DNA from: Anoxybacter fermentans
GTDB taxonomy: Bacteria > Bacillota > Halanaerobiia > DY22613
Reading direction: 5' to 3'
Assembly (NCBI RefSeq): GCF_003991135.1
Contig: NZ_CP016379.1
Span: forward strand, 372,001 to 436,000
DNA length: 64,000 bases
How positions within the stretch are numbered: position 1 is the stretch's first letter; the number at the start of each line of letters is the position of its first letter. The translations under genes were made by a program, and so were the position numbers. This document shows positions 32,852 through 61,891 of this stretch, in pieces. The notes under the pieces were generated by a model. It did no database searches, had not been told where the DNA came from, and worked only from the letters and a program-made list of their open reading frames with translations.

Positions 32852-32853
32852 AA

Positions 32854-34014: not shown

Positions 34015-34123
34015 GACCATTAATTTAAGAAGATTAAATAATAGTCGATTAGGGAAAAAAGAGGAATTTTATTTGATAATGAAGAAAAATAAAAATAAGA
34101 CCCGCAAGATGGGAGGTACCAGA

Positions 34124-40429: not shown

Positions 40430-41221
40430 CTATTGTATCATTTGTTCAGATGCTCCAATTTTGCCGCCAACCTGAATAATAAACTCTGGTGAACCTTCTG
40501 GACTTATGACTATCTTTTTCTGATAAAACTCGTCAATGGTCATCCACTTAGTATCAACTATATTAGATGGTCTGTCTGGTGGAGTTTGAACCTCATTTGA
40601 ACAGAGGATAGGGTGAAAATGTCCGGCTTCATCCCTTACACCTAATTCAAAGATAAATTTTTGATCAGGTTGATTTAAATATAGATACCAGTTTCCTGCC
40701 TTTGGGTCAACAGCTTGAAAGAAATCAATCTGCTGTGAAAAATTTCGAACTTTGAGTTCCCATTTTCCAGAGGGTGCATCAGGAGGTAATACCCAATAAA
40801 CGAATACCCAATAAGGGTCTTTGGCAAGTGCTATTAATGTGGGATTTAACTCCATGTCAATGGCCATCTCATATCCGGAAATTGGCTCGGGTTGAACGCC
40901 TATTTGAATTACGTGATCAGCCGGAGCATTATAATCCAACTCCAATACCTGAACAGGTCTGAATTTTTCAGGTGTCTTTGTTTTTTCTTCATCCTTTAAT
41001 AACTCAATCCTGCTTTTTCTTTTCATTTTTTCTCTTTCCACTTCTAAATCCAACTTATTTTCCCATTCAGGTTTGTGACTTATGTTTGGTTCTTCTGCTA
41101 TTTCCATATCCTCATTTTTTCGAGGAGGAAGAACCACTTCCTTATCACCTTTTTCCCGTTTGCTTATAAAATAGAATATGGCTATTAATACAGGGATCAA
41201 TAAAATAATCCATTTAATCAA
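40430..41221 (-). CDS. DUF4912 domain protein with N-terminal membrane anchor
   Basis: 263 residues. An N-terminal hydrophobic helix (IKWIILLIPVLIAIFYFIS) precedes a charged linker (about 25-95) and a DUF4912 domain (PTLIALAKDPYWVFVYWVLPP, WYLYLNQPDQKFIFELGVRDEAGHFHPIL). DUF4912 proteins are often encoded next to GH57 DUF1957 enzymes, as here: the branching enzyme gene lies 42 bp upstream on the same strand. Role unknown; perhaps alpha-glucan binding or anchoring. Confidence 0.82.
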   Translation of the reverse strand: MIKWIILLIPVLIAIFYFISKREKGDKEVVLPPRKNEDMEIAEEPNISHKPEWENKLDLEVEREKMKRKSRIELLKDEEKTKTPEKFRPVQVLELDYNAPADHVIQIGVQPEPISGYEMAIDMELNPTLIALAKDPYWVFVYWVLPPDAPSGKWELKVRNFSQQIDFFQAVDPKAGNWYLYLNQPDQKFIFELGVRDEAGHFHPILCSNEVQTPPDRPSNIVDTKWMTIDEFYQKKIVISPEGSPEFIIQVGGKIGASEQMIQ

Positions 41222-41263: not shown

Positions 41264-42847
41264 TTATATATGCTGGTAAATTCTATAGTCCAATTCGGGA
41301 AAAAGGTTATTTTCTGCTTCAAACCTGCTCAGTTTCTCTTCATCAATTCTTTTCTCTCTAATCATTTTCACAATTTCATTAAATTGATTCAAATGGGTTT
41401 TGATACGGCGAATGGCATAGTCAACCATAGTACCTGTTTTCATGATAAATGCCCAGTCACTACTTTGGGCCAACAGTAACTCACGTGCTGCCTGGTTTAA
41501 TGCCCTAAGTTCCAGTAAAGAAGGATTTTTATACTCTGAAGCCAGATCGATCATCTGACGGCTTGCTTGATGAAGATAAGGATAAATCCAGTCATTGGTT
41601 CCATTGAGCCAGACTTCGTGATATCCCTCATGACCCCAGCTTCCCTCGGAGGGTTGGGCAATTTGATGGTTTGGATATTTTTCCAGATATCTGGAAGGCG
41701 TAATCAACCTGACCTGGTTTTGATCAAAATAAAGTTTTTTGATAACGAACTCCAGAAATTGAGGTCCTTCATACCACCAATGACCAAATAGTTCAGCATC
41801 ATAGGGTGCATTTATGATTGGTGGTTTATCCATAAAGGTTGTTAAATACTCAATCTGTTTTTGACGGTTGAAGATAAAGTTGCTGGCATGGATAGATGCT
41901 TTTTTTCTAGCCCAATCCGGTTTGTAGACCTTTTTATAATCGGTTTTTCCGGTAATCCGGTAGTATTTGATTCCTGTCATTTTTCTAATCCCTGAGGAGT
42001 GAATGTATGGACGGATATAGTTATAATCCAGGTCATATCCTATATCCCGGTAAAACTCACGGTAATCAAAATCTCCTGGATATCCTTCCTGAGCACTCCA
42101 GACCTGTTTTGAGGTCTCTACATCCCGACCGAAGACTGCCACACCCGCTGGAGTATAGACTGGAGCGTTGACCCCATATTTAGGGCGGGGTGTGGCATAG
42201 AGGAGGCAATGGGTATCTACAAAAAAGAATTCAATTCCTTCATCAGCCAGAATTTGATCAAAACCCGGTTTATAACCACACTCCGGTAACCATATTCCCC
42301 GTGGTTTACGACCAAAGAACCGTTCATAAGTTCTTATTCCCTGACGGATTTGGGCTCTAATTGATTCAGGATAAATCATTAATGGTAGATATCCGTGGGT
42401 GGCAGCACAGGTGATAATTTCAATTTGCCCGATCTCTTGAAAATATCGAAAACCTTGAATAATATTTTTTTCATACCTTTCACAGAATAAATGATAGACT
42501 TTTTTAAATGAATCTAAATACATTTGGGCTACTCTATTAAATTCAGGTTCATTTTGAGTTCGTTTGACTTCTTTTTGTGCCAATTCTATTAATCTCTCTA
42601 AGCGTCGTAGATAACGGGTCTTAAGAAGCTTATCATTTAGCATATTTAATAATGTGGGGCTTAAAACGATAGTGATGGGAAAAGGTACATTTTCCCTTTC
42701 CAATTGTTCCATCATTTTTAATAGCGGCAAATATGTTTCGGTAATTGCCTCATAAAACCAATCTTCCTCTAAGGGATCAGAATCATTTGGATGGCGTACA
42801 AAAGGTAAATGGGCATGTAATACTAGGTTGAGATAACCCTGAGTCAA
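41264..42847 (-). CDS. 1,4-alpha-glucan branching enzyme, GH57 (DUF1957 type)
   Basis: 527 residues, TTG start with GGAGTGA upstream. Diagnostic features are YLNLVLHAHLPFVRHP, the catalytic Glu in GIWLPECGYKPG (about 188), and the catalytic Asp in INAPYDAELFGHWWYEGP (about 347). This fits TK1436-type branching enzymes, which create alpha-1,6 branches in glycogen. It is normal length and cytoplasmic. Convergent partner on the far side of the DUF4912 gene; divergent from the glycosyltransferase gene. Confidence 0.9.
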   Translation of the reverse strand: MTQGYLNLVLHAHLPFVRHPNDSDPLEEDWFYEAITETYLPLLKMMEQLERENVPFPITIVLSPTLLNMLNDKLLKTRYLRRLERLIELAQKEVKRTQNEPEFNRVAQMYLDSFKKVYHLFCERYEKNIIQGFRYFQEIGQIEIITCAATHGYLPLMIYPESIRAQIRQGIRTYERFFGRKPRGIWLPECGYKPGFDQILADEGIEFFFVDTHCLLYATPRPKYGVNAPVYTPAGVAVFGRDVETSKQVWSAQEGYPGDFDYREFYRDIGYDLDYNYIRPYIHSSGIRKMTGIKYYRITGKTDYKKVYKPDWARKKASIHASNFIFNRQKQIEYLTTFMDKPPIINAPYDAELFGHWWYEGPQFLEFVIKKLYFDQNQVRLITPSRYLEKYPNHQIAQPSEGSWGHEGYHEVWLNGTNDWIYPYLHQASRQMIDLASEYKNPSLLELRALNQAARELLLAQSSDWAFIMKTGTMVDYAIRRIKTHLNQFNEIVKMIREKRIDEEKLSRFEAENNLFPELDYRIYQHI

Positions 42848-42987: not shown

Positions 42988-44241
42988 TTGCATATTTTAA
43001 CTTTTTCCCCTGAATATCCGCCACTACAGGTCGGGGGATTGGCCAGGCATGTTAAGCCACTGAGTGAAGCACTGGTTAAAGAAGGACATAAGGTTACAGT
43101 AATTACTCAGATGGCTACAGGTGCACTTAAAGAAGAGATGAAAAATGGGATTGAGATTATCCGGGTTAAGCACCCTCTCGTTAATGCTCCAGATTTTGCG
43201 TCTTCTATTCTTCAGATTAATTTTGAAATGGTACAGGCAGCAGGTAGCCTGATTTTAAAAGGGCGTCATTTTGATTTGATTCACGGTCATGATTGGTTGG
43301 TAATAATGGCTGCCCGAACTTTGAAACACCAACTAAAAGTTCCTTTGATTATGACCATCCATGCCACAGAACACGGTAGAAATCACGGTATTTATAATGA
43401 CTTGCAACGTTATATTAATGATTTGGAATGGCTTTCTTGTTATGAAGCCTGGCGGGTTATAGTCTGTAGTAATTACATGAAACGCGAAATTCAATATCTT
43501 TTTCAGGTTCCTGAAGATAAGATTGATATTATTGAAAATGGCGTGGAACCTGAGGATTTTTCAGGTGATGTTTTAGAAGGATTTCGAGAGAATTATGCCC
43601 ATCCCGATGAAAAAATGGTCTTTTTTGTAGGCAGATTGGTGCAGGAGAAAGGTGTACAGGTTTTGATTGAGTCAATACCTGAAATTTTATTCCATAATCC
43701 TCAGACCAAATTTGTTATTGCCGGAAAAGGACCCAAAATGGATGAACTAAAAGACCAGGCAACACGGCTTGGTGTTTATGATAGGTGCTATTTCACCGGT
43801 TTTATTGATGATAAGACGAGAAATAATCTCTACCGTGTCTGTGATCTGGCTGTTTTTCCAAGTCTGTATGAACCTTTCGGAATTGTAGCACTGGAAGCTA
43901 TGGCTGCTAAAGTTCCAGTTCTTGTCACTAATGTAGGTGGCATGGCAGAGATTGTAGAGGATGGGGTAGATGGGATTAAGGTTCATCCTGGATCTCCACA
44001 TGAGCTGGCCCAGGGGATTTTACGGGTTTTAAAAAACCCTGAGTTGGGTAAAAAGATTCAGGAAAATGGTTTTAAAAAGGTAAAAGAGAAGTATAACTGG
44101 CCCGGGATTGCTAAAAAGACCAATAAAGTTTATCAACGGGTATATGATGAGTATCTGGAAAGTGATTGGGGTGAAGAGATTACTGGTATTAATATGGTTA
44201 ATGAAAAAGTAGAATACCGGTATCAAACTACAGGAAAGTAA
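42988..44241 (+). CDS. GT4-type glycosyltransferase, probable glycogen synthase
   Basis: 417 residues, TTG start behind AAGGAGGG. The N-terminal ILTFSPEYPPLQVGGLARHVKPL resembles the GGLA(D/R) nucleotide-sugar motif of glycogen synthases. The C-terminal half has VFFVGRLVQEKGVQVLIE and the donor-site PSLYEPFGIVALEAMAAKVPV. Its place between a branching enzyme and a glucosyl nucleotide pathway suggests alpha-glucan elongation, although GT4 members also make other products. Divergent from the branching enzyme; coupled to the next gene by a 24-bp gap. Confidence 0.85.
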   Translation: MHILTFSPEYPPLQVGGLARHVKPLSEALVKEGHKVTVITQMATGALKEEMKNGIEIIRVKHPLVNAPDFASSILQINFEMVQAAGSLILKGRHFDLIHGHDWLVIMAARTLKHQLKVPLIMTIHATEHGRNHGIYNDLQRYINDLEWLSCYEAWRVIVCSNYMKREIQYLFQVPEDKIDIIENGVEPEDFSGDVLEGFRENYAHPDEKMVFFVGRLVQEKGVQVLIESIPEILFHNPQTKFVIAGKGPKMDELKDQATRLGVYDRCYFTGFIDDKTRNNLYRVCDLAVFPSLYEPFGIVALEAMAAKVPVLVTNVGGMAEIVEDGVDGIKVHPGSPHELAQGILRVLKNPELGKKIQENGFKKVKEKYNWPGIAKKTNKVYQRVYDEYLESDWGEEITGINMVNEKVEYRYQTTGK

Positions 44242-44265
44242 GGAAAGAAGGAGGATGTGGTAAGG

Positions 44266-46728
44266 ATGAAAGCAATTATTATGGCTGGAGGTAAGGGAAC
44301 AAGATTACGTCCATTAACCTGTGACCTTCCAAAACCGCTGGTACCGATTTTAAACAAACCTGTAATGGAATATAGCATTGAGCTGTTAAAGGAACACAGA
44401 ATCACTGAGATTGGGGTTACTACATGTTATCTTCCCGAGATGATTAGAGATTATTTTGGTGACGGTAGCCGTTGGGGAGTTAAGTTATACTATTTTCAGG
44501 AAGAAGAACCATTGGGAACAGCGGGAAGTGTACACAATGCTTCAGATTTTCTGGATGAGACATTTGTTGTGATTAGTGGAGATGCTTTGACAGATATTGA
44601 TCTCAGTCAAGCTATTAGATATCATCAGGAGAAAAAGAGTATAGCTACTCTGGTTTTAAGCCGCCAGGAAATACCTTTAGAGTATGGCGTGGTGATTACT
44701 GATGAGAATGGTAGAATTATGCGTTTTTTAGAAAAACCATCCTGGGGAGAAGTTTTTAGTGATCTGGTCAATACAGGAATTTATATCCTGGAACCAAAGA
44801 TTTTTGAATATTATGATCATGGAGTTAAGTTTGATTTTAGTAAAGATCTCTTTCCTTTGCTAATGCAGGATGGCCAGACTTTGTACGGTTTTCCTGCAGA
44901 TGGTTATTGGTCCGATATTGGTGATCTGGAACAGTATATGCAAACTCAATTTGATATTTTGACTAAAAAAGCTGATGTATATATTCGAGGTAGACAGATT
45001 GAAGAAGGGATCTGGATTGGTGAAGGAACAGATATTCCTGGAAATGTACATTTAACTGCACCGGTCTTCATTGGAGAAGATGTAGTAATTAAGCCTGGAA
45101 CACATTTAGAAGCAGTTGTGATAGGAGATTATACCATCATTGAATCCGGTAGTTCACTTAAGAGAAGCATTCTCTGGTCTGGGGTATATCTGGGCAGGAA
45201 TACAGAAATCAGAGCTGGTTTTCTCTGTGATGGAGTAAAGGTTAAAGATAATGTTCGAATTTTTGAAGGAGCGGCTCTGGGTACAGATTGTACAATTGGA
45301 AGGAATGTAACTATCCAACCGGGTGTAAAGATCTGGCCAATGAAGGTTGTGGAAGATTATACCAACCTTAATAAAAGTCTTGTCTGGGCACCTAAATGGC
45401 GGAAGCGGCTCTTTAATACTTACGGAGTACATGGTCTGGCAAATATTGAGATAACTCCAGAGTTTGCAGCTAAATTGGCATGTGCCTATGGGTCAACTTT
45501 TGAGAATGGTGCAGAAATTGCTGTAAGCTCCGATAATTTTGCAGTCTCTAAAATGCTGCAAAAATCTGTAGTAGCAGGGCTTCTCTCCAGCGGAATAAGG
45601 GTCGTTGATCTGGGTGAGATACCATCTCCTGTTGCCAGATACAGTATTGCTTCTTTAGAAGCTAGTGGTGGAATGCATATTCGCTGTTGTTATGATAACC
45701 CTGAAGAAATAATTTTTGAGTTTATGGATGAAAATGGAATTAATATTAATCGAAGTATGGAAAGGGAGATTGAAAAGAAATTTTTCGGTGAAGATTTTAA
45801 ACGGGCAGACCAGGAGCATGTTGGAGAATATTACTATGCACCTCAGATGATTGATAGCTATTTACATGGGCTTGAATCACTGATCAATCGTGATCAGATT
45901 CGCCGCAGACGGTATCGATTGGTGATTGATTATGAATATGATAGTCTTTCTCAGCTTTTACTTAATATGCTTGACCGTCTTGGTTGTGAAGCAGAATTTA
46001 CTTATAACTATGGACGCGGGATGCGGCCTTTAAGTTTTGCTGAAAGGCTTTCTACCAGTAATCGGATTGGACAGATGGTTTTTGATTTAGAAGCTGATAT
46101 GGGGATTATTCTGGATCATAATGGAGAGAATCTGACTCTGATCACTGAATCAGGCAGAGTGGTGACTGAAGAGGAATTTCAGATTTTAATGGCCATGGTT
46201 CTTCTTCATCAGGGAGTAAGGAGATTGGTTGTACCAATAAGTGCCCCTGCTTATATTGATGAATTGGTTGAGGAATACGGAGGAGAGATTATCCGTACCC
46301 GGAGTGATAGGCCAACGATAATGCGTACGTTTTTTGATGTGGCAGTAGAAAATGGACAACCTTTTATCTTCCCCTATAGTGATGGATTGGCAGCACTGAC
46401 ACTGATTCTGGACTTTTTAGCAGATCAGGAGATAACTCCAGATGAGTTAATTGAATCTATTCCAGCATTCTATACAAGTCTAGAAGATGTGGACTGTCCG
46501 TGGGAAGAGAAGGGTAAAGTAATGCGTAAGTTGATTGAAACTACCAGGAATGACAAGGTGGAGCTGGTGGATGGTGTAAGAATACAGCATGACCATGGTT
46601 GGACATGGATTTATCCTGATAATGATGAACCGGTCTTCCATGTTTACACTGAAGCAGATAATCCAGAACTGGCATCTCAAATCTCTCAGGAATATGCTGC
46701 CATGATAGAAGATTTTAAAACGAGTTAG
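44266..46728 (+). CDS. nucleotidyltransferase fused to a degenerate phosphomannomutase-like domain
   Basis: About 820 residues. The ATG at 44266 gives the family N-terminus MKAIIMAGGKGTRLRPLT; a GTG at 44257 is too close to GGAGG. Residues 1-235 form the sugar-1-phosphate nucleotidyltransferase, with SGDALTDID and FLEKPSWGE. Residues about 245-370 form a left-handed beta-helix. Residues about 385-820 look like phosphohexomutase. In that part the catalytic serine loop is replaced by MHIRCCYDNPEE (about 471), and the metal loop is DLEADMGIILDHNGE instead of DGDGDR. The mutase is therefore probably inactive or regulatory. Likely makes an activated glucose or mannose for the neighbouring glycosyltransferase. 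Confidence 0.88.
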   Translation: MKAIIMAGGKGTRLRPLTCDLPKPLVPILNKPVMEYSIELLKEHRITEIGVTTCYLPEMIRDYFGDGSRWGVKLYYFQEEEPLGTAGSVHNASDFLDETFVVISGDALTDIDLSQAIRYHQEKKSIATLVLSRQEIPLEYGVVITDENGRIMRFLEKPSWGEVFSDLVNTGIYILEPKIFEYYDHGVKFDFSKDLFPLLMQDGQTLYGFPADGYWSDIGDLEQYMQTQFDILTKKADVYIRGRQIEEGIWIGEGTDIPGNVHLTAPVFIGEDVVIKPGTHLEAVVIGDYTIIESGSSLKRSILWSGVYLGRNTEIRAGFLCDGVKVKDNVRIFEGAALGTDCTIGRNVTIQPGVKIWPMKVVEDYTNLNKSLVWAPKWRKRLFNTYGVHGLANIEITPEFAAKLACAYGSTFENGAEIAVSSDNFAVSKMLQKSVVAGLLSSGIRVVDLGEIPSPVARYSIASLEASGGMHIRCCYDNPEEIIFEFMDENGININRSMEREIEKKFFGEDFKRADQEHVGEYYYAPQMIDSYLHGLESLINRDQIRRRRYRLVIDYEYDSLSQLLLNMLDRLGCEAEFTYNYGRGMRPLSFAERLSTSNRIGQMVFDLEADMGIILDHNGENLTLITESGRVVTEEEFQILMAMVLLHQGVRRLVVPISAPAYIDELVEEYGGEIIRTRSDRPTIMRTFFDVAVENGQPFIFPYSDGLAALTLILDFLADQEITPDELIESIPAFYTSLEDVDCPWEEKGKVMRKLIETTRNDKVELVDGVRIQHDHGWTWIYPDNDEPVFHVYTEADNPELASQISQEYAAMIEDFKTS

Positions 46729-46739
46729 GAGGAGGTAAG

Positions 46740-48722
46740 ATGCCGAGGGCATTAACTATAGGAAATGGGAATCTTTTAATTAATTTTGATAAAGACTTAA
46801 ATATGCGAGATCTATACTTTCCCCATGTTGGGGAGTTAAACCATATTGGCGGTCATAAAAATAGCCTGGGAGTCTGGGTTGATGGTCAGTTTAGCTGGAC
46901 CGATGAATATGGTTGGCAAAATAAGGTTGGGTATCTTAAAGAGAGTCTTGTAACCAAAGCCAATGCCCGTCATGATGGTTTAGGAGTGGAACTTGAGATA
47001 AATGACCTGGTTCATTTCCGGGAAAATATATATTTGAAGAAAATTAAAGTAAAAAATCTTTTTGATTGGGAACGGGAGATCAGGATTTTCTTAACCCATG
47101 ATTTTAGTATTAATGAAACCAATATTGGAGATACAGTTTTTTATGACCCCAGTCTGGATGTAATAATTCAATATAAACGCGATATTTGTTTTTTGATTAA
47201 CGGGTTTACTGAGACTGGTGATGGGTTTTTTCAATATGCCTGTGGTATAAAACGGTTTGGGGGAGCAGAAGGAACCTGGCGGGATGCAGAAGATGGCTGG
47301 TTGGAAGGTAACACCATTGCTCAGGGTTCGGTAGATAGTACTATTAGTTTTAGAGTCAATGTTCCGGGAAAGGATGAAGAGGTGATCTATTACTGGATAG
47401 TAGTTGATCGTGGTTTTGAGGAAGTACGGGAAATGAACTCTTATGTCTTAAGCCGCGGGCCAGCTAATCTTTTACAAAAGACAGAGGCTTACTGGAGGGC
47501 CTGGGTGAACAAGACAAAAAAAGGGTTTCATAACCTGTCTTCGGAGATTGTTGATCTCTATAAATTAAGTCTTTTAATTGTCAGAACCCAGATTGATAAT
47601 AATGGTGCTATTATCGCTGCCAATGACTCTGATATTCTTCAATATAACCGGGACCATTACAGTTATATGTGGCCTAGAGACGGGGCACTGGTAGCCTATG
47701 CTCTGGATATGGCAGGTTATCCTGAGATTACATCACGGTTTTTTAGGTTTTGTGAGAAGGTTCTGGCTGAGGGAGGATATGTATGGCATAAATATAATCC
47801 CGATGGTTCAGTAGGTTCTAGCTGGCATCCCTGGTTTTATAATGGGGAGATTCAATTACCCATTCAAGAGGATGAGACCGCATTGATCCTCTTTGCTTTG
47901 TGGCATTTTTATGAATGGTTTCATGATCTGGAGTTTGTAGAATCTCTCTATCAGCCATTGATTAAAAAAGCTGCTGATTTTATGGTGGACTACCGCCATC
48001 CCGGATTGAAACTTCCTTTGATGAGTTATGATCTATGGGAGGAACGGCGAGGAATTTTTACCTTTACAGCAGCATCAGTTTATGGTGGATTGATTGCTGC
48101 TGCTAATTTTGCTAAACTATTGGGAGATTTAAAAAGATATAACCGATATGCCCAAGCTGCTTCTGAGGTCAAAGAGGCAATATTGACTCATTTATATGAC
48201 CAAAAGTTAGGACGTTTTATCCGCGGGATTTATCTGGAGGGGGATAATATTCGACGTGATCTAACCTTAGAAAGTAGTTTATATGGGGTTTTTAAATTTG
48301 GTGTTTTGCCAGCTAAAGATCCAAAGATGGTGCAGACGATGCAAGCCATCGAGAATGGTCTTTGGTGTAAAACTGAGGTGGGTGGAATTGCTCGCTACAC
48401 AAATGATTATTATTTCAAAAAAAGTGAGGATATTGCCAATGTTCCCGGGAACCCCTGGTTTATCTGTACAATGTGGCTGGCAGATTGGTATATCGAAATT
48501 GCTGAAACTTATGAAGATTTAGAAAAACCACTAAAAATTTTGTATTGGGTAGTTGATCATCAGTGTGAAAGTGGAGTTTTATCAGAACAGATTCACCCAT
48601 ATACAGGAGAACCACTTTCAGTGGCACCTTTGACCTGGTCCCATGCTACACTGATAATGGTGGTAAATAATTATTTGAAGAAATATGCTGAGATTAATCA
48701 AAAGTGTTTTATGAAAGTGTAG
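46740..48722 (+). CDS. glycoside hydrolase family 15 glucoamylase-type enzyme
   Basis: 660 residues, no signal peptide, so cytoplasmic. The N-terminal beta-sandwich (MPRALTIGNGNLLINFDK, YFPHVGELNH) precedes the (alpha/alpha)6 barrel with YSYMWPRDGALVAYALDMAG, EDETALILFALW and the catalytic region SYDLWEERRGIFTFTA (about 427-442). The end PLTWSHATLIMVV is a GH15 hallmark. It releases glucose from maltodextrins or glycogen (or trehalose in some relatives). It follows the fusion gene by 11 bp. Confidence 0.93.
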   Translation: MPRALTIGNGNLLINFDKDLNMRDLYFPHVGELNHIGGHKNSLGVWVDGQFSWTDEYGWQNKVGYLKESLVTKANARHDGLGVELEINDLVHFRENIYLKKIKVKNLFDWEREIRIFLTHDFSINETNIGDTVFYDPSLDVIIQYKRDICFLINGFTETGDGFFQYACGIKRFGGAEGTWRDAEDGWLEGNTIAQGSVDSTISFRVNVPGKDEEVIYYWIVVDRGFEEVREMNSYVLSRGPANLLQKTEAYWRAWVNKTKKGFHNLSSEIVDLYKLSLLIVRTQIDNNGAIIAANDSDILQYNRDHYSYMWPRDGALVAYALDMAGYPEITSRFFRFCEKVLAEGGYVWHKYNPDGSVGSSWHPWFYNGEIQLPIQEDETALILFALWHFYEWFHDLEFVESLYQPLIKKAADFMVDYRHPGLKLPLMSYDLWEERRGIFTFTAASVYGGLIAAANFAKLLGDLKRYNRYAQAASEVKEAILTHLYDQKLGRFIRGIYLEGDNIRRDLTLESSLYGVFKFGVLPAKDPKMVQTMQAIENGLWCKTEVGGIARYTNDYYFKKSEDIANVPGNPWFICTMWLADWYIEIAETYEDLEKPLKILYWVVDHQCESGVLSEQIHPYTGEPLSVAPLTWSHATLIMVVNNYLKKYAEINQKCFMKV

Positions 48723-48747
48723 TTTAGAAAAATGGGAGGGATGGACA

Positions 48748-49005
48748 GTGGTAGAAAGAAAATTTGTTTTCAAAGGAGAAAAAGGACTGAATGCAGAGAT
48801 GGCGACGCAATTTGTCCAGATTGCAAGTAAATATACTTCCAGAATTATGATCATATACGAAGATAAAGAGGTCAATGCCAAAAGTATAATGAGTCTTCTG
48901 GCACTGGCTATCGCTCCCGGTGATGAGTTTATCATTCGGGCCCGGGGTGAAGATGAAGAGTGTGCTCTTAAGGATTTAGCCAGATTTATAGAAAATAGCG
49001 GGTAA
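48748..49005 (+). CDS. Crh-like HPr paralogue lacking the active-site histidine
   Basis: 85 residues with HPr length and fold. The active-site loop reads GEKGLNAEMATQF: Asn occupies position 15 where HPr has His, and Glu replaces Arg17, so phosphotransfer from enzyme I should be impossible. Ser46 is kept in VNAKSIMSLLALAI, the target of HprK. This is the situation of Bacillus Crh, which has Gln15. It is therefore a probable catabolite-regulation partner of HprK (31904). GTG start behind GGGAGGG, 25 bp after the glucoamylase gene, so it senses within the alpha-glucan operon. Confidence 0.9.
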   Translation: MVERKFVFKGEKGLNAEMATQFVQIASKYTSRIMIIYEDKEVNAKSIMSLLALAIAPGDEFIIRARGEDEECALKDLARFIENSG

Positions 49006-49067: not shown

Positions 49068-49074
49068 ATGAAAG

Positions 49075-49124
49075 AGACAGTGCTGAATTATTAAATCTGT
49101 TCAGGCTGTCTTTTATTTTTTTTT
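49075..49124 (+). terminator. terminator of the alpha-glucan operon
   Basis: AGACAG...GAA pairs imperfectly with TTC...CTGTCT, followed by a long T-rich tail. Confidence 0.75.
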
Positions 49125-49206: not shown

Positions 49207-50064
49207 GTGATAAGTTATCAAATCTATTTATGGGTCGGCTTAATGGTATTGGGGCTTATAGATCTCTATTTATCTCGTTATCCCATCTTTCATCCCATTA
49301 TAATGGTTGCGGCAGCAGGATGGTTCTGGAGTGAATTAAATACCGGCCTTATTGTAGGGGGATTTTTAGAGCTTATTTTTGGAATTGCCCAACTTAAGGG
49401 TAATAGACGCTTAAATCTGGTTTTATATGCTGGTGGGCTTGCTATTTATTTAAACCAGGAAACTTATAATATCAATTTGATTTTATGCTTGACTTTGGGA
49501 CTTTTGCTGGCTCTGGGTCTACAATCATTAATGGAACCGTTGCGAAACTTGCTCAAATGGCTGGTTTTGGGAGTCTTTAGTGGAGCCATTATTATTCTGG
49601 TCCACCTGGGAAGAGATTTGTTGGGTCTGATTCCTGCTCAATTTTTGAGTCAAATATCGATAGCAGGGGAAGTTCTGCCCTGGATCTTTTTTGCTTATGC
49701 TATCAAAGGATTGATAGAACGAATTGATAATAAAGAGACAGTGCAGGCTATTCCGGCTATTTTGATTGGTAGTGAACTGAATATGGAGCAGTACATTTGG
49801 GGCCCCATTGCTTTTATAATTCTCTTTTATCTATTCGATATAGTATTTAGAGGCCGGGAGTTTAAGGTATTGTTATGGATTGATTGGGTCCTTATTGTGA
49901 TTGGAATTTATATTAATCTTCAGTTTTTTGGTTTTATATGGGTTTTTGCTGGACTTTTGGGTCTTAATCTTTTATTTATTACCCGAAATTTTGCCCCATT
50001 GGAAATTTATTTGTTAAATTTTATAGCAGGGATTATACTAAGTCAGGGAGGATTGCTTTATTAA
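49207..50064 (+). CDS. polytopic membrane protein, weakly PTS mannose-family EIIC-like
   Basis: 285 residues with about eight hydrophobic segments. GTG start behind GAGGTGG. The stretch GWFWSELNTGLIVGGFLELIFGIAQLKG resembles the GLIIGATLQLIYLG segment of mannose-family EIIC subunits, and overall length and topology agree. No IIA, IIB or IID partner is nearby, and the rest is too divergent for a firm call. It is followed 26 bp later by a PHP hydrolase gene and nagA, suggesting sugar (amino sugar) context. An unrelated membrane family is possible. Confidence 0.5.
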   Translation: MISYQIYLWVGLMVLGLIDLYLSRYPIFHPIIMVAAAGWFWSELNTGLIVGGFLELIFGIAQLKGNRRLNLVLYAGGLAIYLNQETYNINLILCLTLGLLLALGLQSLMEPLRNLLKWLVLGVFSGAIIILVHLGRDLLGLIPAQFLSQISIAGEVLPWIFFAYAIKGLIERIDNKETVQAIPAILIGSELNMEQYIWGPIAFIILFYLFDIVFRGREFKVLLWIDWVLIVIGIYINLQFFGFIWVFAGLLGLNLLFITRNFAPLEIYLLNFIAGIILSQGGLLY

Positions 50065-53487: not shown

Positions 53488-53643
53488 AGTTTGATTCCTC
53501 CTTTCAAAAAAAAGTATAAAATTATTATTCGTTAAAAATATCAAAAATACCTTTAAATAAGAAAATAAAATAAAGAAAGAATATTTTTATAAAATAGCGA
53601 ATATTTCTTTGAAGACAAGATTTGGTTGAAAGGAGAGAATCTC
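53488..53643. promoter_or_regulatory. divergent intergenic region
   Basis: 156 bp, very AT-rich, between the beta-propeller gene (minus) and the giant surface protein gene (plus). It must hold both promoters; no clear consensus pair was picked out. Confidence 0.4.
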
Positions 53644-54138
53644 ATGAGGAGAAGATGTCTTATATTCTTTATTCTCATAATCTATCTGGTCTTTTTAAAC
53701 CAAATAGTATTTAGTAAAAGTTATTCCTCAGGTCCATATAGCAATGGATTGAGAATTACAGAAAATTCTACTTTAACCGGAGGTACTTATGATATTAAAG
53801 GGGATTTTACTATTAATTCGGGTGTTACTTTAACAGTGAAAAATACTACTACATTGAATGTTGAAGGTAATATAAATATATTTGGTAAAATTGTAACAGA
53901 CAAGGTTAAGTTGAATTTAAGCATGATAAGCTCAAATGGAAATATTTTAATTAAAAATAGTATCAATGTTTATAGTGCCCAGGGCTTACCTGGAAGGAAT
54001 GGTGAGGATAGTTATAATGGATCTAAAGGTGGCGATGGTAAAACATCCAATTTATATCTTATTGCTAATAAAGGTGACATTTTGAAATATTTTGAATATA
54101 GGTGGTACAGGCGGAAAAGGTGGAGATGGAGGAAATAG
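53644..54138 (+). CDS. N-terminal fragment of giant surface protein (frameshifted)
   Basis: The ATG at 53644 has GGAGAG upstream and starts a signal peptide (MRRRCLIFFILIIYLVFLNQIVFS). The following region (LRITENSTLTGGTYDIKGDFTINSGVTLTVKN) is beta-helix-like and then enters a glycine-rich stretch (GLPGRNGEDSYNGSKGGDG). After KGDILKY the frame becomes basic nonsense and stops at 54138. The glycine-rich reading continues in the +1 frame from about 54092. Removing one T from the four-T run at 54090-54093 would join the two parts as one gene. Confidence 0.8.
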   Translation: MRRRCLIFFILIIYLVFLNQIVFSKSYSSGPYSNGLRITENSTLTGGTYDIKGDFTINSGVTLTVKNTTTLNVEGNINIFGKIVTDKVKLNLSMISSNGNILIKNSINVYSAQGLPGRNGEDSYNGSKGGDGKTSNLYLIANKGDILKYFEYRWYRRKRWRWRK

Positions 54139-57100
54139 TTATGGAGGACTTTTTTCTGGAGTGGACGGAGGTAATGGTGGTATGGGTGGAACCGGTGGAG
54201 ATGGTGGGTGGATTGAAGTTATTGCCAAAAAAGGAAAGGTTGAAATAAAAAAGATGGTAAAATCTCTAGGTGGAACTGGTGGCCGTGGTGGAAAAGGAGG
54301 AGCTGATGCAAGTATAAGTGGAGGACCAGGAAATGGTGGTGATGGTGGAAATGGTGGAGATGGTGGTCAAATTTTAATCATTGGTCAGGATGTGAAAATT
54401 TATAGAGGAGCTGGTTTTGATGTATCTCCAGGAATTGGAGGGGCTGGAGGAAGTGGTGGCGCTCCAGGTACTTCTGGTCCATCAGGTGAAGATGGTGATT
54501 CTGGTTCTCCTGGAGAGCCTGGTTCTGTGGAAATAAAGGGTGGAGAAATATTTTACGAATCTTCAAGAATTAAAACTCTTTCTAGTATCTATATTTTACC
54601 CTCACAGGCCCATACAAGTATAGAATATGATCAAGTGAAACCGAATAAGCCAGATATTATAAAATTTCCTTATTTTAAAAATAATGAAACTGGCGTATAT
54701 TACACAAATACTACAACACCGATTATAGAGATTAAGGTTCCAGAAGATAATGGTTTTTCCGAATATGGACTTAAAAGTGGAATTGGAAAATTTAAAGTAT
54801 GGAGTTTAGAATTAGAAGATGATAATTCAAATATAATAGATAAACCTATAAGAACGTTGAGGTTAGATTTAGATTCTGGATATACAATGCCGCCGAAACC
54901 AGATGAAGATGATGTTGTTTATCCTTATCCTGATACTGATACTGAAGATTCAAAAGCTCTTGCTGTTGATGTTGTTCAGGCTTTTGATGAAAGTCAGGTG
55001 CAAAATGGGTTTTTCTCTTTTCCACTGGAATGTGTAAAAACAAATACTGTGTTACATTTGAATGTAAGGACATATGACAAATATGATAATTATATAGATT
55101 ATGTAGATAATGATAGTAACTGGTTAAAAATTTATATTGATACTATTCCACCAGATTCTCCAGATGGTTTACAGTATCAAATTTTTGATGAGACAAAGAT
55201 AGAATTTGAATGGACTCCGCCAAGAGATACAAGTGGAATAAAAGAATATGATATTAAAATTAATGATAGAATAGTGGCTCAGGGGATTAAGGAACCCAGA
55301 TATATATATAATGGAGGTTTTAATAAACAGATTAAATTTCAAGTTAGAGCTAGAGACCTGGCAGGTAATGAATCACAATTTTCAGATCCAATAATAGTAT
55401 ATACATATCCAGAGAAAACAAGTATTAAATCTGTAATTACCGGCGGAAACCGTTTTTCGGGTTATACTGCAAGTGTGCAGTTTATCTCGGTTGGCGATAA
55501 AGCTGCTGGATATCAAATAAAATATTTTGAAGTTGATAGTAGTGGGAATCGAATTAATAATGAAGAGTTTGATATTATTCGTGATGTGGGAAGTATTAGT
55601 ACCCCAGCAGGTGGTACTTATAGTTATGTAATTTATAATTTAATTGCCCATAAGAGGTATAAGTTTGCTATTCGAACCTATAACAGTAAACCAGGAGCCC
55701 CAAATTACACTGATTGGGTTGAATATGGTCCCGTTCAGGTAAAAAATAATGCTCCTACCAGGGCCACTTTATTATCTCCGGCTGATGGTGAGTATATTAA
55801 TTGCAATAAAGAAAGTTCTTTTGTTTTAAAAGCAGCAGAAAGTACAGATGGTGATCTTGATTTTCTCTTGTATACTTTTGTTATTAATGGTGAGGAATCT
55901 TCAAAGTTTAGGGCTTCTAATGGAGAGGTTATATATAGACCAAACATTGTAGATGGATCTTATGAATGGTTTGTTCGCACATATGACGGATATGATTGTA
56001 CTGAATCGGAGACAAGAAGATTTATTGTCGATCTAACGCCTCCACTTGCTCCTGAATTTTCGATTGAAAAAGCAGAAATCAAAGAAGATAAGGTTACTCT
56101 AAAGAATATTTTAATTCGTGATAATGATGTGGCAAGATTTAGGGTTTGGTCTGATGCAGATAACAGAATAAAAGAAATTAATGTAGCTAACTCATATACA
56201 CTAACCATTCCCAAAGTCGAAGGAGCACAAAATATTTATATGAAAGCAGTAGATAAGGCGGGTAATGTAAGCAAAACTTCTTATAAGGTTCGGATTATTT
56301 ATGATATTACTCCTCCGCAAAAACCTTCTTCCATTACTCTTAGTGGAGGTAATCATTCAATTAAAGTAAGTTGGAATGAATGTGCAGACCAATTACCCAG
56401 AAGTGGAATTGATATTAGTGGGGTTGGGGGTTATCGAATTAGATACAGGAAATATGGTACTGATAAGTGGACAGAGGTAGATGTGAATACTAATAGTTAT
56501 TGGATTACAGGAATTGGTGAAAATGATAAGTATGAGGTGCAATTAATGACTGTAGATAAAGCTGGTAATGAAAGTGGGTGGACCAATAGTTATTACGGTT
56601 ATTCTTTGCCATCAGTGGGTATTTTAAAAGTTTTAGACTTCGGTTATAAATTAACTGATTCAGGGGAATATCAGCATTATGTAGATTTTTCCGTTGACCC
56701 TGGTTATTCTGCCAAATACAAAATAATCCGTAAAAACCAGGATACAGGGTTGGAAAAGGAGACTGGTTGGATTGATAGTTCGGTGCAGACCTATCGTGAT
56801 TATTGTTCTCCCCATGGCAGATATAACTACAAAATAGTTACTCGTAATTCATTAGAAAAGAAGATAGAGGCTGTTTCTTCTGAATGGTATTCTGTAGATA
56901 TTCCAAATCATCAACCACAGGTACCAGTAAATACAGTTAAAGGTTTTATAAATCAATTACAACCCACATTAGGTTGTGAGCCAGTTTTAGATGTGGATGG
57001 TGATGGTCTGACATATTATTATTATATCGAAGAGGATAAAGCAGGAATTAGAAATCCCATTGTTAAATGGGAAGTGGCCAATAATTCAAACATTCTTTAT

Positions 57101-60100
57101 CAACCTATTGTTAACCTTAAGGATGGTTATACCTACTATTATCGAGTTGGTGTAGATGATGGATACTCAATGATTAAGGATGAATATAACAATTTGATTC
57201 CTGGTGTGGTTTCAGTAGAAACCAGTTTTGTGGTTGACATAACCGCTCCAGAAATAGAAATTATTCTGCCAGAAGAGCATAGGGATAGTATTTTGAAGGG
57301 TGAATTTGTTGATGAGGTTACTGTAATTGTCAAGGCTATTGACAAGAATCCAGCTATTAGTGGGGGTAGTTCCAGCGGTTTAAAAGATCTCTATTATTAT
57401 TGGAATGGTGATTTATCAACCAAAAGGACAATCTCTTCTGGAGAGTATATTGAAATTCCTCACGGAATTAATACCCTTTATGTGGTTGCGGAAGATAATA
57501 TAGGAAATAAAACCAGGCCAAAGACAATGGTATTTAAAGTGGATAAAACTGGCCCGGTAATTTCTGATCTTACACTGCAAGGGACCGAATTGAATGGAGT
57601 AAAATATACAGTAAGTTCCTCGGAATTATTTGCAACATTCCGTTTGACAGAAGAAGAAACAGAAGTTGACAGAGCTGTGTATAGCATTGTAACTGCAGCT
57701 GAACTATCAAATCTGGATAACTTACCGGATGATCGATGGGTTTCTATCTCTATTAAAGAAGGGATTGAAAATTATTATGAGATTGTTGCTCCTTATGATC
57801 TAATTGATGGAGAGGAATACTACTTTGTTGTAAAAGCCTGGAACATAGTTGGAAGAGAAACTGTTGCATATTCAGATCCAGTAATTGTAGATAGTTCTGC
57901 ACCAGAAATTAAATTTAGTGATAGTGAGGGTACTGTACCGGATAAATATAGGTTAACCAGTTTGAGTAATTTAACTCTGGTATGTGAAGTTATAGATTAC
58001 GGTTCAGGAGTAGCTAAATTGGAGTATGGTCTCTCAGAAGAACTGGATGAGGCAAAAGTAACAAATTGGTGCTCAGACATATCTCAACTTTCAAGTATCT
58101 CTCTAGAGGATGGAAAAGAATATCATCTAGTAGTACGGGCAATTGATCATCTGGGATTGAAAAATGTGGAGTTTAGTGTGCCCATTTTAATTGATACAAC
58201 TCCTCCAGTTTTTAAATCTCTTAAAGGAGGAAATCCAATACCTGGTACAGATCAATATCAGACACAGTGGGATCCAACGTATTTGAAGGTTTATTGGAAC
58301 ATAACAGATGAGAGTAATCTACTTCAAATAAGATATGCTATTGGTATTACTCCTGGTGGTAAGGAGATATCCAGTCAGTTACCGGGTAATGCAAATGGAT
58401 GGTTTAGTGTTGATAAGTGGAAGAAGGAAATGGATCTGATTATTGATAGTCTTAATTTAGCTGATGGAAGTTATTATGTGACCATTGAAGCAACTAATGA
58501 AGTAGGATTGGTTCAAAAACAAACGACAAATCCTATCATAATAGATACTACTTTACCGCCAATGCCAGTAGTTAAAGATGACGGAATCTGTACCGGAAGG
58601 AAAGAAATCCACTTTACTGTATCATTCCCGAATGAGAATTTGTTAGATAATCAATATTATTATCAAATAGTTGCTGAAAACGGTAGTGTTGTTTATGGAG
58701 AAGTGGAACTTTCCAATCCAAACAATTTACCTGATGTAAGTTTAACTGTTGATGAATCTGATGGCATAACTTTTGAAAATGGTAAAACTTATTATGTGGT
58801 ATTGGGAGAAAAAGTTAATGGTATATTTACTCCAATTGCTTATAGTGATGGAATTATAATTGATTGGACTCCACCACAGTTTATCAGTTTTAATGATGGA
58901 GAATATTTTACAGATGAAAATGTATATTTGACCTGGGATGCTGTGGATGAAGAATCAGGTATTAGCAGTTATTACATTAAAATTGGGACAAGCCGTGGTG
59001 GTGGTGAATTAACAGACGGCTGGATTTATCTGGGAACTAAAAACTCAACAGCAGTCCAGGGTCTGGAATTTGGAGATGGTGGATTATACTTTGCTACCAT
59101 AAAGGCAATCAACAGAGCAGGAACAGAAACTGTGATTATCGGAGATGGTTTTCGTATTGATACAACTTCACCTCCTATACCTAAAGTTTTAACCGAAAGT
59201 AACTATACTACCAGGTTGGATACACTGGCAGCCAGTTGGACCTGGACAAAACCAGATACTGGCTCGGGGACGGTCGCCTATTATTATGATTATCTGACTG
59301 TTCGAGATTCTACTCAGGCTCAATGGAAACCTGTAGAAAGTATAACTGGGGATCCATTATCGACCAGAATTACTTTGACCAATCTAAATCTTAAAAATGG
59401 TACAACTTATTATATTGCGATAAAAGCTGTGGATCGGGTTGGTCTGGAATCGGTTGGCTTAAGTGAAGGAATTATGGCAGATGTGGAGGCGCCGATAACT
59501 CCAATCATTGATGATTTGAGAGATTATCAGGACTTTACTGATCAATTAACTGCTCACTTCTATTCCCGGGATGAAGAATCCGGGATCAAAGGTTTTAAAT
59601 ATGCTATTGGAACATTGGATGATGAAACGGCAGTGATGGATTGGAAAGAGATTACCAATCCTGAAGAAACAGTCTCAAATCTTAATTTAGTTGAAGGAGA
59701 AATCTATTTCTTTACAGCTCTAGCTACTGATAATGCCGGTCTTAAGTCAGCTAAATCGCGCAGTGATGGAATCTTAATTGATATGCAAAAACCTACTATT
59801 GAATATGTACATTCAGAGGGTGAGTACTCAAATAATGGTCGGGAACTGTTCTTTGTCTGGAAAGGAGTTCCCTCATATGCGCCAATTGTAGAATATGAAT
59901 ATTATCTAACTCCAGAAGCTAATCCAACGACTTATGAGTGGAAATCAACCACTCAAGAACAAATTCTCCTTACTGCAGAAAATGAGATCAATTCTCCAAC
60001 ATTTATTAATGGTCAAACCTATTATTTCTTTGTTCGTGCGCGGGATGCTTCCGGTAAAGTTTCTGAGATAGCCAGTGCTCATATTACAATTGATTCTACA

Positions 60101-61891
60101 CCCCCTATTCGACCAGTGATTTTAATGGATGGAGATTATCAATCACAAAATCTGAATTTAAGCTGGAGAAGTAGTGATCCTGAGACACAGATTGCCAGAT
60201 ATCGTTATGGAATTGGTACTGTCCGTGGAGAAGTGGATGTGACCAATGGATGGGTAAATATAGAAGAAACTGGAGAGTATGTCCATATTTATCGGGATGA
60301 TTTGCCATTAAAACACAACCAGAGATATTATCTTTCAGTTCAGGCGCAGAATAATGCTGGCGCATGGTCTGAAGTAGGATATGATGAAGGTTTTTTAGTT
60401 GATTTAATTCCGCCATCTACACCGGAAGTTAAGGGGCCAGGCCATTATTTAAGGAGCAAAACTACCATATCTAATATTACATTCTCTTCAGAGGAAACTG
60501 AAGTTGGTATTAAAGCCTATCGTTATCAGATCATTGCAGAGGATGAGAAGGATCAAATTACAACTTTGACGGGTAAAGTAATTTCACTTAATTCAGAAAA
60601 CAATACCTATGATAAGAGTGTTACAGTTACCTTTGATGCTGAGAATCTTTCTCTTAAAGAAGGAGGCAAATACTATATTGCTGTTCAGGCCCAAAATATT
60701 CTGAATATGTGGTCAGATGTTGGATTTACATCAATACCGTTTATCGTTGATACTATACCTCCATCTGTAGCCTTTGTTCGTGGAAATGAAGAGATTGTGA
60801 CAAATGGTGAGAGTATTGAAATAAAATGGACTACAGACGAGGTTGGTAAAGTATTTTATAGATTAAAGCATCCAGATGGAAGATTTACACCAGAACAGGG
60901 TTATCATGAAGAAGAAATTACTGCAATTGGAGAACATACTCTGATTTTTGATCAGACTGAAATAGGTACTTATTATTTCTACCTTTATATGGAAGATATG
61001 ACTGGTAATATTTCTTCTGAAGTAGTTCAACAGATCAGAGTTAATTCTCCACCGAATATTCAGGTTGGTGATGGTAGATCTGTCTATAAAGGACGGGAAT
61101 TACGATTGGGTGAGTCAGATTTTGTGGTTACAGACCAGGATGGAACAGTTGAGATTTATGAATGGGATTTTGGTGATGGAACAGCAATTGTAACAACTAC
61201 AGAACTTTCTGTATCTCATCGTTATACCGAAATTGGAGATTATACAGTGACTTTAACTGTAACCGATAATGATGGAGGAAAAGCATCTGCTGAATTGAGC
61301 GTTATTGTAACCAATACACTGGAGGGTGAACTGACTTTAGATGAGACCTGGACCGGGATAATGGAATTGAGAGGAGATGTAATTGTACCTGAAGGAATTA
61401 CTTTAACTATTCAATCAGGTACTGTGATTGTGGTTCCTAATGGAAAAGGAATAGTGGTAAATGGAACTATAAATTGTAATGGTAGTTATGAAGAAATTAG
61501 ATTTACTACTACTGACCCTACAGGAACTTATGGTCCTAACCTCTGGAAGGGAATTTATCTTTCCAGCACCAGTCTGGGTTCTGAGTTTCTCAATACAGTA
61601 GTTGAATATGCTGAACGGGGCCTGGTTTTGAATCGTCAGGACATTTTGATAAAAAATTCTATCTTTAGAGAAAATGGAATCGGAGTGCATATGTATCAGT
61701 CTTCTACTGCTATAAATAATTGTAGATTTGAAAATAACCTCTATTATGGCATTAAAGAAGAAGGAGTCAATACACCAATAATTTGTAACAATATCTTTTA
61801 CGGAAATGGTATTGCACCATATTATCATCATGAAAAGACATTACTTACGATAGAAGATGTAAATAATCTCTTTGGTTTCGGAAACCAGTAA
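54092..61891 (+). CDS. giant secreted surface protein: glycine-rich region, about 15 Ig/FnIII-like modules, PKD domain, beta-helix
   Basis: 2,599 codons in this frame, without its own ribosome site or signal peptide; both belong to the fragment at 53644. Order: glycine-rich GGTGGKGGDGG and collagen-like GSPGEPG stretches (residues about 3-155); about 15 beta-sandwich modules of 90-140 residues, most ending in a motif like IDTTPP followed by a new module; a PKD domain (about 2325-2410, YEWDFGDGTAIV, HRYTEIGDYTVTLTVTDNDGG); and a right-handed beta-helix (WTGIMELRGDVIVPEGITLTIQSGT ... NNIFYGNG). Modules contain YYF(V/A)KAxN-like strands of fibronectin type. A role in adhesion or polysaccharide contact is inferred. 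Confidence 0.85.
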   Translation: MNIGGTGGKGGDGGNSYGGLFSGVDGGNGGMGGTGGDGGWIEVIAKKGKVEIKKMVKSLGGTGGRGGKGGADASISGGPGNGGDGGNGGDGGQILIIGQDVKIYRGAGFDVSPGIGGAGGSGGAPGTSGPSGEDGDSGSPGEPGSVEIKGGEIFYESSRIKTLSSIYILPSQAHTSIEYDQVKPNKPDIIKFPYFKNNETGVYYTNTTTPIIEIKVPEDNGFSEYGLKSGIGKFKVWSLELEDDNSNIIDKPIRTLRLDLDSGYTMPPKPDEDDVVYPYPDTDTEDSKALAVDVVQAFDESQVQNGFFSFPLECVKTNTVLHLNVRTYDKYDNYIDYVDNDSNWLKIYIDTIPPDSPDGLQYQIFDETKIEFEWTPPRDTSGIKEYDIKINDRIVAQGIKEPRYIYNGGFNKQIKFQVRARDLAGNESQFSDPIIVYTYPEKTSIKSVITGGNRFSGYTASVQFISVGDKAAGYQIKYFEVDSSGNRINNEEFDIIRDVGSISTPAGGTYSYVIYNLIAHKRYKFAIRTYNSKPGAPNYTDWVEYGPVQVKNNAPTRATLLSPADGEYINCNKESSFVLKAAESTDGDLDFLLYTFVINGEESSKFRASNGEVIYRPNIVDGSYEWFVRTYDGYDCTESETRRFIVDLTPPLAPEFSIEKAEIKEDKVTLKNILIRDNDVARFRVWSDADNRIKEINVANSYTLTIPKVEGAQNIYMKAVDKAGNVSKTSYKVRIIYDITPPQKPSSITLSGGNHSIKVSWNECADQLPRSGIDISGVGGYRIRYRKYGTDKWTEVDVNTNSYWITGIGENDKYEVQLMTVDKAGNESGWTNSYYGYSLPSVGILKVLDFGYKLTDSGEYQHYVDFSVDPGYSAKYKIIRKNQDTGLEKETGWIDSSVQTYRDYCSPHGRYNYKIVTRNSLEKKIEAVSSEWYSVDIPNHQPQVPVNTVKGFINQLQPTLGCEPVLDVDGDGLTYYYYIEEDKAGIRNPIVKWEVANNSNILYQPIVNLKDGYTYYYRVGVDDGYSMIKDEYNNLIPGVVSVETSFVVDITAPEIEIILPEEHRDSILKGEFVDEVTVIVKAIDKNPAISGGSSSGLKDLYYYWNGDLSTKRTISSGEYIEIPHGINTLYVVAEDNIGNKTRPKTMVFKVDKTGPVISDLTLQGTELNGVKYTVSSSELFATFRLTEEETEVDRAVYSIVTAAELSNLDNLPDDRWVSISIKEGIENYYEIVAPYDLIDGEEYYFVVKAWNIVGRETVAYSDPVIVDSSAPEIKFSDSEGTVPDKYRLTSLSNLTLVCEVIDYGSGVAKLEYGLSEELDEAKVTNWCSDISQLSSISLEDGKEYHLVVRAIDHLGLKNVEFSVPILIDTTPPVFKSLKGGNPIPGTDQYQTQWDPTYLKVYWNITDESNLLQIRYAIGITPGGKEISSQLPGNANGWFSVDKWKKEMDLIIDSLNLADGSYYVTIEATNEVGLVQKQTTNPIIIDTTLPPMPVVKDDGICTGRKEIHFTVSFPNENLLDNQYYYQIVAENGSVVYGEVELSNPNNLPDVSLTVDESDGITFENGKTYYVVLGEKVNGIFTPIAYSDGIIIDWTPPQFISFNDGEYFTDENVYLTWDAVDEESGISSYYIKIGTSRGGGELTDGWIYLGTKNSTAVQGLEFGDGGLYFATIKAINRAGTETVIIGDGFRIDTTSPPIPKVLTESNYTTRLDTLAASWTWTKPDTGSGTVAYYYDYLTVRDSTQAQWKPVESITGDPLSTRITLTNLNLKNGTTYYIAIKAVDRVGLESVGLSEGIMADVEAPITPIIDDLRDYQDFTDQLTAHFYSRDEESGIKGFKYAIGTLDDETAVMDWKEITNPEETVSNLNLVEGEIYFFTALATDNAGLKSAKSRSDGILIDMQKPTIEYVHSEGEYSNNGRELFFVWKGVPSYAPIVEYEYYLTPEANPTTYEWKSTTQEQILLTAENEINSPTFINGQTYYFFVRARDASGKVSEIASAHITIDSTPPIRPVILMDGDYQSQNLNLSWRSSDPETQIARYRYGIGTVRGEVDVTNGWVNIEETGEYVHIYRDDLPLKHNQRYYLSVQAQNNAGAWSEVGYDEGFLVDLIPPSTPEVKGPGHYLRSKTTISNITFSSEETEVGIKAYRYQIIAEDEKDQITTLTGKVISLNSENNTYDKSVTVTFDAENLSLKEGGKYYIAVQAQNILNMWSDVGFTSIPFIVDTIPPSVAFVRGNEEIVTNGESIEIKWTTDEVGKVFYRLKHPDGRFTPEQGYHEEEITAIGEHTLIFDQTEIGTYYFYLYMEDMTGNISSEVVQQIRVNSPPNIQVGDGRSVYKGRELRLGESDFVVTDQDGTVEIYEWDFGDGTAIVTTTELSVSHRYTEIGDYTVTLTVTDNDGGKASAELSVIVTNTLEGELTLDETWTGIMELRGDVIVPEGITLTIQSGTVIVVPNGKGIVVNGTINCNGSYEEIRFTTTDPTGTYGPNLWKGIYLSSTSLGSEFLNTVVEYAERGLVLNRQDILIKNSIFRENGIGVHMYQSSTAINNCRFENNLYYGIKEEGVNTPIICNNIFYGNGIAPYYHHEKTLLTIEDVNNLFGFGNQ

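Follow-up and report, generated by a model that had tools for sequence, protein, structure and literature searches.

A Crh-like protein lacking His15 is the sole HPr of Anoxybacter fermentans and is encoded in an alpha-glucan operon

HPr-family gene and its product

What role is left to an HPr-family protein that lacks the catalytic histidine, in a cell that has no enzyme I (EI) to phosphorylate it? The question is raised by a short gene within a 64,000-nucleotide stretch of the A. fermentans genome (the window; positions 372001-436000 of a single 3.56-Mb contig, the genome being 100% complete). The open reading frame at 48748-49005 on the forward (+) strand starts with GTG, is preceded by a ribosome site (GGGAGG, 48734-48739) and encodes an 85-AA product, the sequence of which contains the N-terminal stretch MVERKFVFKGEKGLNAEMATQFVQ and a further stretch, VNAKSIMSLLALAIAPGDE. 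In a profile search residues 2-83 matched PF00381 with 85.6 bits, and the score for the TIGR01003 family was above the cut-off. The AlphaFold model of the protein (mean pLDDT 94.7) agreed with HPr crystal structures at a TM-score of 0.96, so that a chance reading frame is ruled out; the PF00381 match, the model and the codon constraint described below also rule out a pseudogene.

The original prediction placed Asn, Glu and Ser at positions 15, 17 and 46, and this was confirmed by alignment to B. subtilis HPr and by the codons themselves, all read on the + strand. The position of the catalytic His15 is occupied by Asn (AAT, 48790-48792), residue 17 is Glu (GAG, 48796-48798), and Ser46 (AGT, 48883-48885) lies within NAKSIMSLL, which fits the motif found in HPr and Crh relatives. 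As the alignment also shows, both Arg17 and Pro18 of HPr are missing.

Search for enzyme I and other HPr proteins

The gene had been described as that of an HPr paralogue. This is not correct, since a PF00381 search of the whole genome returned one locus, 48748-49005, and no further HPr. The absence of EI and of a true HPr, noted earlier for the surrounding DNA, extends to the complete genome: ptsI and a His15 HPr were both searched for and neither was found, and the EI N-domain (PF05524) gave no match in the complete genome, whereas seven control genomes were positive. The two whole-genome searches thus rule out a His15 HPr or an EI elsewhere in the genome, and the lack of EI supports the PTS independence proposed for this system. 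As the protein has no His15 and the cell no EI, a phosphocarrier role is not expected; the protein would instead be a Crh-like regulator, with no transfer of phosphate from PEP.

Operon structure and the EIIC-like neighbor

The HPr-like gene is the last of four, as predicted for an operon of glycosyltransferase, nucleotidyltransferase and glucoamylase genes. It follows, on the + strand, the genes for a GlgA-Coryne-like GT4 glycosyltransferase (42988-44241; 164 bits, below cut-off), a fused sugar-1-phosphate nucleotidyltransferase/phosphoglucomutase-like protein (NTP/PMM; 44257-46728, profile matches) and a GH15 glucoamylase or oligosaccharide amylase-like protein (46740-48722, profile matches). 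The gaps are 15, 11 and 25 bp, and the HPr-like gene is followed by a terminator hairpin and a T run (49072-49114, +; -17.7 kcal/mol, z -3.9). The claimed linkage to alpha-glucan genes is thereby borne out, although the operon position by itself is no proof that the operon enzymes are the target of the HPr-like protein.

Past the terminator, a separate transcription unit (49207-50064, +) encodes an orphan membrane protein of 285 AA with a weak likeness to mannose-class PTS EIIC, the only match, itself weak, in an EII-Sor search of the genome. Orthologues are found in the alpha-glucan cluster of families f10 and f11. Because the gene lies in this same cluster also in relatives of the class that have neither HPr nor EI, it is no sign of a leftover PTS operon, and that candidate was rejected. 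The orphan starts 201 bp 3′ of the HPr-like gene, and this proximity would fit an alternative in which a different residue or a different PEP-dependent enzyme, perhaps together with the orphan, lets the HPr-like protein still carry phosphate. Yet the EI N-domain is absent from both genomes of the family (G000, the present one, and G001), Asn is no substitute for His15 in its role, and the EIIC-like protein, here encoded beyond the terminator, occurs also in G046 and G049 without HPr and EI; we consider a phosphocarrier most improbable.

HprK and the surrounding alpha-glucan cluster

An hprK gene had been reported in the window behind a glucokinase gene, and both were found there, 16 kb upstream of the HPr-like gene. 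The ROK glucokinase gene (30921-31880, +; 287 bits, above cut-off) is directly followed by that of the HPr(Ser) kinase/phosphorylase (31904-32851, +; TIGR00679, 382 bits vs. a cut-off of 240), which is the single HprK of the genome in a PF07475 search. Both HprK domains are present (PF02603 and PF07475), and alignment to the solved HprK structures 1ko7 and 1jb1 showed intact motifs: the Walker A sequence GESGIGKSE, IADD, ELRGIGIID and VPVRPGRNL. Further along the + strand lie the genes of two Glucodextran_C proteins (32848-33771, which is kept beside hprK in the class, and 34073-35062; profile matches) and of an archaeal-type glycogen debranching enzyme (35572-37536; 491 bits, above cut-off), followed on the opposite (-) strand by those of the DUF4912 protein of the cluster (40430-41221) and a divergent GH57 branching enzyme with a BE_C domain (41264-42847), both recognized by profile matches. 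The debranching enzyme, GH57 branching enzyme, GH15 protein and GlgA-like GT4 would together form a predicted set for synthesis and breakdown.

The presence of Ser46 together with an intact HprK, as for Crh, makes the HPr-like protein most likely an HprK substrate, and we regard its phosphorylation at Ser46 by the cell's own HprK as very likely. Crh is a described substrate of HprK (PMC9631020, PMC13130090). The HprK encoded 16 kb upstream probably both phosphorylates and dephosphorylates the HPr-like protein, at Ser46 only, and with this as the only modification its phosphorylation state would follow the levels of ATP, FBP and phosphate.

Class-wide comparison of the cluster

Throughout the class the genes follow the conserved order glk-hprK-Glucodextran_C-small CBM-like protein, and the cluster continues in several genomes with DUF4912, GH57, GT4, NTP/PMM, EIIC-like and PHP genes. 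Several family f10 genomes have the EIIC-like gene within about 30-125 bp after the NTP/PMM gene; GH15 and HPr genes between these two were found in the class comparison only in the present genome and G001. G046 and G047, in which no HprK was found, have the Glucodextran_C gene directly after glk. This comparison indicates that hprK is an old member of the alpha-glucan locus, which the HPr-like gene joined in its own family.

HprK was detected in 39/59 class genomes, and HprK without EI in the present genome, G001 and one 76%-complete genome only. B. subtilis has hprK, yet the HprK Pfam search gave no match in it, so absences of HprK in relatives are to be read with caution.

In the genus of G034-G037 (L103, L104, L105, L106, L137) the sole HPr has Gln15 or Arg15, together with Lys17, Ser18 and Ser46. 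G034 has an EI gene in which the GSATSHAAILA site is intact, and EI is found in two more of these genomes; it is puzzling that an EI should have no HPr with His15 as its partner.

Conservation of the altered site in G001

The taxonomic order was represented in the comparison by one other genome, G001, of the same family but a different genus. Its sole HPr, which includes the stretches MVEEQVELKVEGGLNAEVATRFVQIASRYTSRI and VNPKSIMSLLTLAIAPG, also has Asn15, Glu17 and Ser46, and the gene follows the same GH15 gene and precedes the same EIIC-like gene; HprK is present in that genome and the EI N-domain search was negative. Asn15 is thus conserved in the only relative within the family that was compared. 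The two proteins are identical at 56/83 positions overall, at 18/21 of residues 13-33 and at 18/20 of residues 38-57, and the genes differ with pN 0.21 vs. pS 0.77, as for hprK. From this pattern of identity and the pN and pS values, the altered site is judged to be under constraint.

These data bear on whether the gene is a decaying, functionless ptsH relic left after loss of EI. Such a relic would account for the loss of EI and of His15, Arg17 and Pro18. However, the same substituted site is found in two genera despite saturated synonymous sites, the Ser46 helix is near-identical, the ribosome site, the operon and the terminator show no damage, HprK is retained, and both faces of the protein would not have survived in a relic. 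We therefore hold decay to be very improbable.

HPr proteins of EI-less genomes across the phylum

A phylum sample of 399 genomes was searched for EI and HPr, on which the counts rest; apart from the present genome, the only EI-less member in which HprK was noted, by chance, is G275. EI was present in 158/399 genomes and HPr in 164/399, and 13 had HPr without EI, ten of which are at least 99% complete and were counted. Seven of these ten, from five families, have no His15 HPr, and Ser46 is present in all seven. Position 15 is Asn in the present genome, Glu in G240, G275 and G206, Lys in G256, Ser in G207 and Thr in G350. The less complete EI-less genomes G181, G295 and G355 also have His15, and EI may simply be missing from their assemblies. 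Among 40 control loci from EI-positive genomes 38 had His15, and the remaining two were Crh-type second copies with Gln15. Loss of His15 was therefore compared as 7/10 EI-less genomes vs. 0/38 His15-typed EI-positive controls (Fisher p 1.6e-6 by genome and 1e-4 by family), counts which ignore the full phylogeny and use controls taken from high-scoring matches, biased toward His15.

As judged from gene names read from sequence, most of the His15-less HPr genes of EI-less genomes lie at a rapZ-yvcK-whiA locus, which is where Bacillus has crh, and the A. fermentans gene, in its alpha-glucan operon, is the exception. In EI-less G275 a Glu15/Ser46 HPr is encoded with hprK, glk and GlgC/GlgD-like genes within 8 kb (names from sequence motifs). 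Against a PTS-independent role of the His15-less protein stand the three near-complete EI-less genomes that kept His15 (G084, G321 and G442), and the genus of G034-G037, in which HPr has Gln15 or Arg15 despite the EI genes.

Variation at this site was also seen within a single genus (L228, L229 and L230, that is G256, G206 and G175): EI-positive G175 encodes an HPr with His15 as well as an Asp15 copy, the latter at a uvrC-HAD-crh-rapZ locus, and the EI-less congeners retain just the Lys15 or Glu15 copy. The HPr domains of G221, G339, G269 and G076 (L172, L173, L174, L175), EI-positive genomes in which the EI matches are weak, are highly divergent: they contain LHFRPxARL, and the region around Ser46 is altered.

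Comparison with Crh and HPr

Likeness to Crh had been proposed for the protein and was borne out, as in a comparison with PDB sequences the closest relevant solved chain was B. subtilis Crh (60 bits vs. 50-57 bits for true HPr chains, among the relevant matches). The Crh model NF010354 was the top scorer among the models listed, although its 72.9 bits lie below the cut-off of 123. The HPr-like protein shares with Bacillus Crh (PDB 1zvv, NF010354) the HPr fold, the replacement of His15, Ser46 and an HprK in the genome, and is 45% identical to it in the structure alignment. In contrast, Bacillus Crh has Gln15 and Arg17 where Asn15 and Glu17 are found here, and its gene lies at yvcJ-yvcK-whiA-crh rather than after GH15 in an alpha-glucan operon; moreover, no true HPr or EI and no recognizable CcpA accompany the present protein. 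With HPr (PtsH) it has in common the fold, PF00381 and a TIGR01003 score above the cut-off, but not His15, Arg17/Pro18 or an EI in the genome.

A tree built from 83 columns united the A. fermentans and G001 proteins solidly (100/99), the placement of the pair elsewhere in the tree being unsettled, and needed about 5 changes for the His15-less rows, 2 of them forced. As 83 columns are too few, the tree does not decide between descent from ptsH and from crh. The best name for the protein is Crh-like, sole HPr, given that it scores below the Crh cut-off, lies at another locus and has no true HPr alongside.

Crh is known outside Bacillus, in T. saccharolyticum (PMC3526391). The presence of ptsH without ptsI, the state seen here, is described for Bartonella and Ureaplasma by Comas et al. 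2008 (PMC2405797); the text consulted holds no discussion of His15 loss or of an HprK-only circuit. The literature searched, mostly without subscription journals, yielded no description of EI-less Firmicutes in which HprK is paired with a single HPr lacking His15, and none of an alpha-glucan operon that includes an HPr-family gene.

Possible output of the HprK circuit

Taking the evidence as a whole, we think it reasonably likely that the protein is, like Crh, a target of HprK, here independent of a PTS, and that it signals glycolytic or energy state, probably to alpha-glucan metabolism. In E. coli, which has EI, His15 is the switch of the interaction between HPr and glycogen phosphorylase. 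Structure comparison of the AlphaFold model returned this complex of E. coli HPr bound to glycogen phosphorylase (9s8k, 9s8b), in which an HPr-fold protein likewise acts on alpha-glucan metabolism, although phosphorylation at His15 is impossible in the A. fermentans protein. Given the operon context, direct action on alpha-glucan enzymes is our preferred output: by analogy, the phosphorylated or dephosphorylated form may bind alpha-glucan or central carbon enzymes directly, a proposal we advance tentatively. Inhibition of MgsA by unphosphorylated Crh has been reported (PMC13130090).

The other output considered was CcpA-style regulation, in which Ser46-phosphorylated HPr-like protein would be a corepressor of a LacI-family regulator at operators diverging from the cre consensus, with repression of alpha-glucan and sugar genes. 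The genome has 11 LacI-family matches. One of them (G000:369616), encoded 2.4 kb ahead of the window, carries Tyr and Glu at the positions of CcpA 296/297, and the orthologue in G001, to which it is 76% identical, carries Tyr, Asp and Arg304; the route is kept in view because the local protein has part of the motif and the orthologue all of it. However, Glu17 replaces Arg17 on a face of HPr and Crh that we take to contact CcpA, the ccpA cut-off was passed by 0/59 class genomes, and the window contains neither a perfect cre site nor more near matches than expected. Arg304, the contact of CcpA with Ser46-P (PMC4591507), is missing in the seven of the 11 LacI proteins that were read. CcpA and cre as the obvious output are therefore disfavored, and LacI-mediated corepression in the wider sense is unlikely.

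Most work on HprK and on Ser46 of HPr is done within the PTS, where sugar uptake and the phosphorylation of His15 confound the signal. A genome that encodes HprK and a single, Ser46-only HPr but lacks EI amounts to a natural single-site mutant of the PTS regulatory network, so that the effect of Ser46 phosphorylation alone becomes directly testable. That the pattern recurs in several families suggests that it is the serine branch which is worth retaining, and the tie of hprK to alpha-glucan genes offers a concrete target without the need for CcpA. A broader and rather doubtful extension is that HprK and a His15-less HPr together form a free-standing energy or glycolysis sensor that PTS-less Firmicutes have repeatedly kept, and which in the present family moved into the alpha-glucan operon to switch glycogen enzymes directly via Ser46 phosphorylation.

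Among the LacI-family regulators, three (L129:4012-5187, L134:4345-5559 and L121:1498-2652) have an extra N-terminal copy of the helix-turn-helix; this doubled form gives two domains to CcpA by phmmer and is conserved in the present genome, G001 and other class members. Elsewhere in the window, a signal-peptide reading frame (53626-54138) goes out of frame at the start of a glycine-rich 2599-AA one (54092-61891), as though a frameshift divided a single large secreted protein.
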